Source: Bacteroidales bacterium (GTDB lineage: Bacteria > Bacteroidota > Bacteroidia > Bacteroidales > Bacteroidaceae). From it: a DNA stretch of 64,000 nucleotides. Below, in pieces: positions 7,531-57,140 of this stretch. The stretch's first letter is position 1. Each line of letters begins with the position of its first letter. The notes under the pieces were generated by a model. It did no database searches and had not been told where the DNA came from. It saw only the letters and a program-made list of their open reading frames with translations. The position numbers were made by a program, and so were the translations under genes. Location of the stretch: assembly GCA_012729225.1 (NCBI GenBank), contig JAAYDO010000209.1:47755-111754 (forward strand), written 5' to 3'.

Positions 7531-7576
7531 GGTTGATTGCAGGACTTGAAAAAAACAGGTATCTTCTGTAATCAGC

Positions 7577-7664
7577 AACCATATGGTAGACGAGCAGAAA
7601 CCATATGGTAAACGAGCAGAAACTATATGGTATTTACTCACAAACCATATAGTCCGAAAAAACG
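7577..7664. repeat. divergent 22-bp array, three units plus terminal unit
   Basis: Three successive 22-bp units (AACCATATGGTAGACGAGCAGA, a one-base variant, then a more diverged copy) are followed by a fourth unit starting AACCATATAGTCCG and the tail GATGCGCTTTTC. Each early unit contains the palindrome ACCATATGGT. Period and unit number match the four arrays at 22333, 33578, 45649 and 57041, although the unit sequence differs. Confidence 0.8.
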
Positions 7665-13454: not shown

Positions 13455-13524
13455 CCCTCCCCATGCTTCCACAAGCCTTCGAGATGCCTTCGAGATGCCT
13501 TCGAGATGATTTCGAGATAATTAA
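13455..13524. repeat. 11-bp array with conserved left flank, copy 1
   Basis: Four 11-bp units (CCTTCGAGATG three times, then ATTTCGAGATA) are preceded by CCCTCCCCATGCTTCCACAAG. The flank and array match 38405-38469 with a few substitutions (CCTTCGAGACG there). A reverse-complement relative with four units lies inside prmC. From 13437 to 13820 there is no credible gene; the listed ORFs there are short and low in coding character. Confidence 0.8.
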
Positions 13525-22264: not shown

Positions 22265-22431
22265 GGCAAAAAAGCAAGCATTTCCTCTTTCACAGAACAC
22301 ACTAAATGATTGAAGCGTTCTTCATGCTCCAACGAACAATGCTTCAAGTGCCAATGAATAATGGTTCAAGAGCCAACGAACAATGGTTCGATGACCCATG
22401 AACCATGCGTGCGTTTTCCCCTAACAAGCAT
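22265..22431. repeat. 22-bp array element, copy 1
   Basis: A leader ending TTCTTCATGCTCCAA is followed by three exact 22-bp units (22333, 22355, 22377; YGAAYAATGSTTCRAKWGCC type). The terminal unit TGAACCATGCGTGCGTTTTC (22399-22420) and a downstream AACAAGCATT close the element. It lies between convergent genes. Apart from this element the 22222-22610 spacer shows nothing recognisable. Confidence 0.88.
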
Positions 22432-33559: not shown

Positions 33560-33675
33560 GTATTCTGCTTGCTCCAATGAACAATGGTGCGATGGCAAAC
33601 GAACAATGCTTCAAGTACCAATGAACAATGGTGCGATGACCAATGAACCATGCGTGCATATTTTCACCGATAAAT
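33560..33675. repeat. 22-bp array element, copy 2
   Basis: GCTCCAA is followed by 22-bp units at 33578, 33600 and 33622. The terminal unit TGAACCATGCGTGCATATTT starts at 33644. It lies between convergent genes. The leader is shorter or more diverged than in the other copies. Confidence 0.87.
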
Positions 33676-38189: not shown

Positions 38190-38404
38190 CGTAAAAACTC
38201 CCACAAATCCTTTCACTCATGAAACATCTTCTTTAGAAAACGAAACACCACACGTCCCAATCCTCCTTCTCATGCCAAAATCCGTGGCTCTTCTTTCATT
38301 TTTTCACAAGCACAGACTCCTTCCAACCACCAAGAGATGCTCGCACACCCTTCTCCAATTGAAGTGAAACTAAAACAAAGAATAATCCTTCACGGACAAA
38401 TCTT

Positions 38405-38491
38405 CCCTCCCCATACTTCTACGAGCCTTCGAGACGCCTTCGAGACGCCTTCGAGACGAGTCTCAGATAATTCCACCACCTTTTTTCTCTT
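38405..38491. repeat. 11-bp array with conserved flanks, copy 2
   Basis: CCCTCCCCATACTTCTACGAG is followed by CCTTCGAGACG three times and a fourth diverged unit. The right flank contains AGATAATTCCACCACC and a T run. The left flank and array match 13455-13519; the right flank recurs inverted at 33514-33544. The rest of the 38145-38538 spacer shows only the promoter. Confidence 0.82.
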
Positions 38492-45564: not shown

Positions 45565-45750
45565 AAGCAGATGTGCGAGAAGGGAAAACAGCAGGGATTC
45601 CTCCTCCATATGGCACACCACACCACCGAAGCGTTCTTCATGCTCCAACGAACAATGGTGCGATGGCAAATGAACAATGCTTCAAGAGCCAATGAACAAT
45701 GCTTCGTTGGTCATCGAACCATGCGTGCGTTTTCGTTCCAACAAGCATCT
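45565..45750. repeat. 22-bp array element, copy 3
   Basis: A leader of about 80 bp resembling that of copy 4 (AAAGCAGATGT onward, ending TTCATGCTCCAA) precedes units at 45649, 45671 and 45693. The terminal unit CGAACCATGCGTGCGTTTTC is at 45715 and AACAAGCAT follows. It sits between two genes on the same strand, unlike the other copies. The rest of 45508-45909 shows nothing recognisable. Confidence 0.88.
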
Positions 45751-52740: not shown

Positions 52741-52793
52741 CCTCTTGTGCTACAGCGCACATCTGGGAAATTGTGATTGAGACAAGTGAGACA
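52741..52793. repeat. interspersed repeat B, copy 2
   Basis: Matches 13383-13436 with few substitutions (CCTCTTGTGC, CATCTGGG, GATTGAGACAAGTGAGACA). It ends 117 bp before prmC. The TGTGC/GCACA pair within it can form a small hairpin. Confidence 0.75.
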
Positions 52794-52909: not shown

Positions 52910-53818
52910 ATGATGAAGAATGTATATCGAGACATCAAACAGATATTGGCAGAAGGAGGCATTGCCAGTGGAGAAGCCCAAGCCATCGCTATGCTCTTGA
53001 TGGAGAAAGTGGCTGGGATGACTACTGCCGAGGTGCTCATGAATGACCCTAAAGGGGAGGAACACCGAGCCACGCTCCTCTCCTGCGCCACTCGAATAGC
53101 GAAGGGTGAGCCTGTGCAGTATGTAGTGGGCGAGGCTGATTTCTGTGGACTCACCTTCAAGGTAACGCCAGGAGTGCTCATCCCAAGACCTGAAACGGAA
53201 GAGTTGGTGAACTGGGTGAGAGAAGAGGCAAAGGAGATGGAAGGGTCGAAAGAAGGGAAACTGGCTTTGCTGGACATTGGAACAGGAAGCGGATGTATTG
53301 CCATCTCATTGGCTCATCTGCTGAAGGATACTGAGGTGGAGGCTTGGGACATCAGTGAAGAAGCACTCCTGATGGCTCGGGAAAATGCGAAGAGGAATCA
53401 TGTGGGGGTGGTATTTAAGAAGAGAAACGCTCTCGAAGGCATCTCGAAGGCGTCTCGAAGGCATCTCGAAGGAGAGAGTGGCTGTATTTTTGAGGAATCA
53501 CAAAGGATGTTTGACATCATTGTGAGCAATCCTCCCTACATTTGCGAAAGCGAAAAGAAGAATATGGAAAGGAATGTGTTGGAGCATGAACCTGGACTGG
53601 CTCTGTTTGTGCCCGACAATGACCCTCTGCTCTTCTACCGCAAGATAGCGGAGATGGGGCGCACCTCTCTAAGAGAGGGAGGAAGGCTATTCTTTGAAAT
53701 CAACCGACAATATGGTATGGAGACTTTAGAGATGCTTGGAGAGATGGGATACCAAGAGGTGGAACTGCGGAAAGACCAGTTTGGCAACGACCGCATGGTG
53801 AGGGCAATAAAAGCATGA
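52910..53818 (+). CDS. prmC: peptide chain release factor N5-glutamine methyltransferase, with repeat-derived insert
   Basis: Methylates the GGQ glutamine of release factors. About 302 residues from the ATG at 52910 (or 52913); the longer ORF start at 52793 precedes the promoter. The N-terminal helical domain is MMKNVYRDIKQILAEG onward. The SAM motif is LLDIGTGSGCIAISLA and the substrate motif IVSNPPYICESEKK. Between RNAL and the NPPY strand the chain has an extra segment of roughly 20 residues (EGISKASRRHLEGESG), encoded by four 11-bp repeat units at 53431-53474. Frame is kept. The rest is of normal length. Confidence 0.92.
   Translation: MMKNVYRDIKQILAEGGIASGEAQAIAMLLMEKVAGMTTAEVLMNDPKGEEHRATLLSCATRIAKGEPVQYVVGEADFCGLTFKVTPGVLIPRPETEELVNWVREEAKEMEGSKEGKLALLDIGTGSGCIAISLAHLLKDTEVEAWDISEEALLMARENAKRNHVGVVFKKRNALEGISKASRRHLEGESGCIFEESQRMFDIIVSNPPYICESEKKNMERNVLEHEPGLALFVPDNDPLLFYRKIAEMGRTSLREGGRLFFEINRQYGMETLEMLGEMGYQEVELRKDQFGNDRMVRAIKA
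53431..53474. repeat. 11-bp array inside prmC
   Basis: TCTCGAAGGCA, TCTCGAAGGCG, TCTCGAAGGCA and TCTCGAAGGAG in tandem. The reverse complement (CCTTCGAGATG/CCTTCGAGACG) equals the units of the non-coding arrays at 13476 and 38426. The non-coding flanks are not present here. Confidence 0.88.
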
Positions 53819-56954: not shown

Positions 56955-57140
56955 AAAAAGCAGATGTTTGTGAGGGAAAGACAGTAGGTTTCCCCCTCAA
57001 ATTGACACATCACATGATTGAAACTTTTTTCATGCTCCAATGAACAATGGTTCAATGGCAAATGAACAATGGTTCAAGTGCCATCGAACAATGGTGCGAT
57101 GACTCATGAACCATGCGTGCGTTCTTACGCTTATAAGCAT
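56955..57140. repeat. 22-bp array element, copy 4
   Basis: A leader of about 85 bp (AAAGCAGATGT, then CACATGATTGAAAC, TTCATGCTCCAA) is shared with copy 3. It is followed by units at 57041, 57063 and 57085, the terminal unit TGAACCATGCGTGCGTTCTT at 57107 and ATAAGCATT. It lies between convergent genes. Confidence 0.88.

Follow-up and report, generated by a model that had tools for sequence, protein, structure and literature searches.

How does a tandem repeat of the kind found between genes come to lie inside the coding sequence of a conserved enzyme? The question is raised by the prmC gene of a gut bacterium, located in a stretch of 64,000 nucleotides that was analysed as a whole (the window):

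52910..53818, + strand: prmC, coding sequence of release factor glutamine N5-methyltransferase, 302 aa (Pfam, alignment)

Alignment with relatives places the start at 52910 or 52913, the longest open reading frame starting at 52793. The product presents the PF17827 (PrmC_N) and PF05175 (MTS) domains above the Pfam cut-off, motif I (DIGTGSG) and SNPPY are both conserved in the alignment with relatives, and its best PDB matches are E. coli PrmC (2b3t) and T. maritima HemK. By domains and motifs, the protein is a member of the PrmC/HemK family of release-factor methyltransferases, for which the GGQ glutamine of release factors is the methylation target. A pseudogene was ruled out, given the intact reading frame and the conserved motifs, and an Asp-to-Asn substitution at residue 173 is also found in one congener (L017) in the alignment.

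The repeat occupies the following positions within the gene:

53431..53472, + strand: 11-bp tandem array in prmC, 3.8 copies of TCTCGAAGGCA (TRF: period 11, 93% matches)
53423..53440, + strand: left edge of the array, prmC codons AGA AAC GCT CTC GAA GGC (R-N-A-L-E-G), from the sequence and the relatives' codons

The array has 42 bp, or 14 codons, and encodes LEGISKASRRHLEG (residues 175-188). It lies in the loop between the SAM-binding half and NPPY and the reading frame stays open across it, both as the initial annotation had described. A unit of 11 bp does not divide into whole codons, and the peptide period, reached after three units, has 11 residues (ISKASRRHLEG). The roughly 20 added residues proposed at first are too many, as 11 to 14 residues are repeat-encoded and motif I and NPPY are separated by 77 residues, the median spacing being 62 among congeners whose loop lacks a repeat. 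The net gain was probably 33 bp, that is, three units and 11 residues, because the left-edge codons GCT CTC GAA GG are already unit-like, and because the typical array size of three units happens to be frame-neutral. The stretch GCTCTCGAAGG at this edge agrees with the repeat unit and may have served as the microhomology for copying the array into the gene. The PrmC alignment that had been suggested for defining the insertion located the loop and the spacing excess; the exact insert, like the date of the gain, had to be inferred, as the nearest PrmC is only 63% identical.

The central claim, that a repeat of intergenic type sits inside prmC, was confirmed, since runs of at least three units of TCTCGAAGGC are found at three sites in the window, namely 13475 (-), 38425 (-) and 53431 (+), the first two being as follows:

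13475..13518, - strand: non-coding array, 4 copies of the 11-bp unit, tail at 13456-13474, no clear leader
38376..38491, - strand: complete intergenic element, leader at ~38458-38491, three units at 38425-38457, tail at ~38376-38424

With up to one mismatch, TCTCGAAGGC has 16 matches in the window versus 3.6 expected (0/100 shuffles), and a dimer of the unit, with up to two mismatches, has 162 matches genome-wide versus 0 for the reversed pattern. The genome holds at least 53 arrays, mostly non-coding; the data for this species come from one MAG (213 contigs, 89% complete), and the array numbers are lower bounds. Both a leader and a tail are present in 27 of the 53 classified arrays (mode 3 units), neither flank in 12, and one flank in the others. 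The intergenic element thus has the form leader-(11 bp)n-tail, of about 110 bp, with leader AAGAAAAAGGTGgTGGAATTATCTAAGACTC and tail TCGCAGAAGCATGGGGAG..., its ends not being sharply defined and showing a weak GAAAAAG ... CTTTTTC terminal pairing. Among complete elements with clear neighbours, 19 of 20 are downstream of an ORF on the same strand (p=4e-5), which suggests a preference for the 3' ends of genes and hints at a role or an insertion preference there. Compared with shuffles, the consensus element shows no excess of folding on either strand (z -0.18, -0.19), and Rfam gave no match; an RNA structure or riboswitch was ruled out on these grounds. Insertion of the whole element in prmC was also ruled out, as the leader and tail are absent and the bare array alone is present; an apparent leader match in the gene falls on GGAATCATG, at an offset that does not fit, and is due to chance. 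The array was not found in 44 congeners using a 66-bp query, and when relatives encoding the same loop from non-repetitive DNA were sought, neither the 11-bp unit nor its PrmC peptide was found in any congener.

The unit is open in both reading directions, and both are used in coding copies. Besides prmC, two conserved genes of the genome carry the array:

L061 (G000:C20:18159-18764): DUF2027-like gene, array encoding the linker peptide HLEGISKASRR
L050/L208 (G000:C112:11052-12140): M20 peptidase gene, array encoding the C-terminal tail and stop codon

The linker protein, which we take to belong to the DUF2027 family, has no match in Pfam and is recognised by its conservation across the genus; its peptide HLEGISKASRR is absent from 29 homologues. 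In the M20 peptidase, the array is read in the opposite direction and gives the last residues and the stop (...LPLYLSILRDAFEMPSR), in place of which homologues usually end in ...SLYVKLLSSL or similar, and repeats are present in 2 of 29 M20 homologues. Other ORFs over arrays look spurious: three that were scanned (L046, L048, L068) have no Pfam match, and the remaining ones (e.g. L053, L049, L042) were dismissed by eye.

The aligned PrmCs present two variable loops, one before motif I and the other between the post-motif-III residues and NPPY. TRF repeats were detected in 24 of 43 congeneric PrmCs, mostly in these two loops, whereas in other genera they were detected in 1 of 18, where the repeat is marginal and in a different place (p=1.7e-4 in a Fisher test that pools related species). 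With these cases and the two further genes of this genome, the initial description of such an event as rare proves too narrow, and should read recurrent in this genus. The loop repeat units differ between species (7 bp, as TCAACTG or GGACAAC, 8, 9, 11 and 23 bp), and the inserted peptides, such as QLSTVNC, GQRTTDN, PEIPDF and ISKASRRHLEG, have no common features. Within one and the same loop, this housekeeping enzyme has acquired intergenic repeats that differ from one related species to the next. The genomes with a GTCAACT-type PrmC contain 29 to 386 further matches to this repeat and rank above the rest (p=1.2e-5), and the two with a GGACAAC-type PrmC (G002 and G042) contain 51 and 26 further matches (p=0.002), both p-values ignoring shared ancestry, which inflates the significance. 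The reversed-pattern control is valid for GGACAAC and uninformative for GTCAACT, whose reversed repeat is a rotation of itself. Judging from these counts, the repeat type in PrmC tends to match the type abundant in the genome of the same species. GTCAACT itself is absent from the genome of the window, 7-bp units being present in many congeners. A tree of the PrmC core, built without the loops, requires at least 12 changes of repeat type, and groups the species of the window, with modest support (81), with species holding GGACAAC or TCAAC heptamers in the same loop. Long ORFs, several of which are PrmC, contain 15 TCAAC-type heptamer arrays, and every one is read in the direction free of stops, the outcome to be expected from random insertion with removal of the copies that introduce a stop.

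In the AlphaFold2 model of the window PrmC (mean pLDDT 88), the sole segment below 50 comprises residues 180-193, and in that of congener L012, both of whose loops contain heptamers, the two heptamer loops coincide with the two segments below 50 (114-118 and 185-199). As the low-pLDDT segments match the repeat loops, the inserts appear to be located outside the folded core, and the enzyme of the window should still be functional.

We consider it very probable that the array in prmC was copied from the lineage-specific minisatellite of this genome, placed in a tolerant disordered loop and kept when frame-neutral and stop-free, as one case of a genus-wide process. The observations behind this reading are the identity of the array with the genomic family, its restriction to one species, the preserved frame, the loop position and the recurrence across the genus. 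The minisatellite resides mainly as the core of the leader-(11 bp)n-tail element 3' of genes, and about three of its units (33 bp), without flanks, would have been copied into the variable prmC loop, probably at the unit-like GCTCTCGAAGG, possibly by template switching or recombination at microhomology followed by slippage. Its retention would then be explained by a length (3 x 11 bp) that leaves the frame intact, by a unit free of stop codons and by a loop situated away from the folded core, and across the genus the abundant tandem repeat of each species would enter the same tolerant protein loops. That the insert is functionally neutral we infer from the disorder prediction and from the lack of a shared peptide between species. 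It is difficult to reconcile this with an adaptive loop, in which the 11-residue Arg/Lys-rich insert would give PrmC a new function, for example a contact with RNA, the ribosome or a release factor: the insert ISKASRRHLEG is indeed basic, and PrmC is affected more often (24/43) than the M20 peptidase (2/29), but the absence of common features among the inserted peptides, the predicted disorder of the loop and the many congeners without any insert make this improbable.

A more serious competitor, although still an unlikely one, is an expansion in situ, in which the unit-like GCTCTCGAAGG slipped on its own and the match to the intergenic repeats is convergent or due to a shared slippage bias. 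The left edge of the array does coincide with ordinary prmC codons, and repeats of such unit size are described as slippage-prone in PMC4679880 (citing Mrazek et al. 2007). Against this stand the 162 dimer sites in the genome that match the unit with up to two mismatches, the presence of the same peptide, HLEGISKASRR, in a second, unrelated protein encoded by this genome, and the tendency of other species to have their own abundant repeat in PrmC; intergenic copying and in-situ expansion followed by homogenisation nevertheless give the same pattern. A collapse of repeats or a misjoin in the draft genome can be considered highly improbable, even though repeats are known to cause misassembly and this assembly comprises 213 contigs at 89% completeness, as the array has just 42 bp, is flanked on both sides by unique prmC sequence within one contig of 111,754 bp and keeps the frame, and the same kind of finding was made in independent genomes.

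The minisatellite copy proposed here has several partial precedents. The Rickettsia RPEs, according to PMC10969869 (citing Ogata et al. 2000, 2002), are many-copy repeat DNA inserted in frame in conserved protein genes, in an apparently folding-compatible way. The in-frame insertions in prmC and in the DUF2027-like and M20 genes are similar, whereas the RPEs of that account are palindromic, of about 150 bp and with a conserved peptide, and here the repeat is a non-palindromic minisatellite of 11 bp (7-9 bp elsewhere), the unit in a given loop varies with the species, and in place of a strong hairpin potential the element folds like its shuffles. BrickBuilt, a minisatellite/MITE of Porphyromonas gingivalis (also of the Bacteroidales), has spacer-free tandem units of 23 nt between a leader and a tail, with some copies lacking one or both flanks; it is species-limited, its units expand and contract, and it is always intergenic and has terminal inverted repeats (PMC4596501). 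The leader-units-tail architecture is shared, with both flanks in 27 of 53 arrays, but the unit here is of 11 bp, three arrays lie in conserved genes, and the terminal inverted repeats correspond at best to the weak GAAAAAG/CTTTTTC pairing. The heptamer STRR (TAACTGA) of cyanobacteria, Beggiatoaceae and some Bacteroidetes is likewise high-copy, lineage-restricted and mostly intergenic, its coding occurrence being limited by stop codons (PMC4679880); the repeat studied here has instead an 11-bp unit, and the heptamers of the congeners are common inside conserved proteins. In the archaeal Borgs, tandem DNA repeats (aaTRs) create disordered protein segments at recurring places in homologues, as observed here, but in Borg ORFs the unit lengths are multiples of three and almost every repeat is unique (PMC9879509), in contrast to the 7- and 11-bp units described above, which are not multiples of three and recur in many intergenic arrays. 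The nearest precedents are thus the RPEs for repeat DNA in proteins, BrickBuilt for the element, the STRRs for the congener repeats and the Borgs for the disorder, none of which fits fully. No account of repeats in PrmC was found in the open-licence literature searched.

A unit of 7 or 11 bp passes through all three frames and in this way reveals that it arose in non-coding DNA, and the PrmC loops offer a natural, replicated experiment on non-coding DNA turning into protein. This makes it possible to test by what route repeats spread, where in a protein they are tolerated, and whether the resulting segments gain function. More tentatively, the genus may have an active process that copies the current minisatellite of each genome into genes, with the PrmC loops as a recurrent sink in which the repeat of one species replaces that of another. 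In such a case, earlier invasions by repeats would be preserved in these loops, and bacteria would regularly obtain new disordered protein sequence by capturing repeats.

Some further repeats were observed in the genus and in the window. PrmC has a third repeat site, in the N-terminal domain, with a 22-bp repeat (GATTGCCGACGGCAAAGACATG type) encoding ALIADGKDLLCRRQ or similar, which was seen in one clade (L011, L012, L014, L018, L021, L022 and L023). Within the sampled congener DNA, heptamers or 23-mers are found in a DUF4954 protein, a SpoU rRNA methylase, a glutamate racemase, GSCFA proteins and an RNase H1 linker (L107:4789-5658, L107:17141-17207, L107:8836-8950, L099:7224-7256, L102:7462-7526 and L109:12167-12224), and also in a Kdo-kinase-like protein. 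The window itself contains a second minisatellite, with a 22-bp period and the core CCAATGAACAATGG, at 22321-22407, 33574-33657, 45645-45703 and 57029-57120, all outside long ORFs, the core having 13 matches in the window versus 0.9 expected. A further 22-bp array, with 2.7 copies of CAGAAACCATATGGTAAACGAG, is present at 7573-7632 and is non-coding by the ORF screen.
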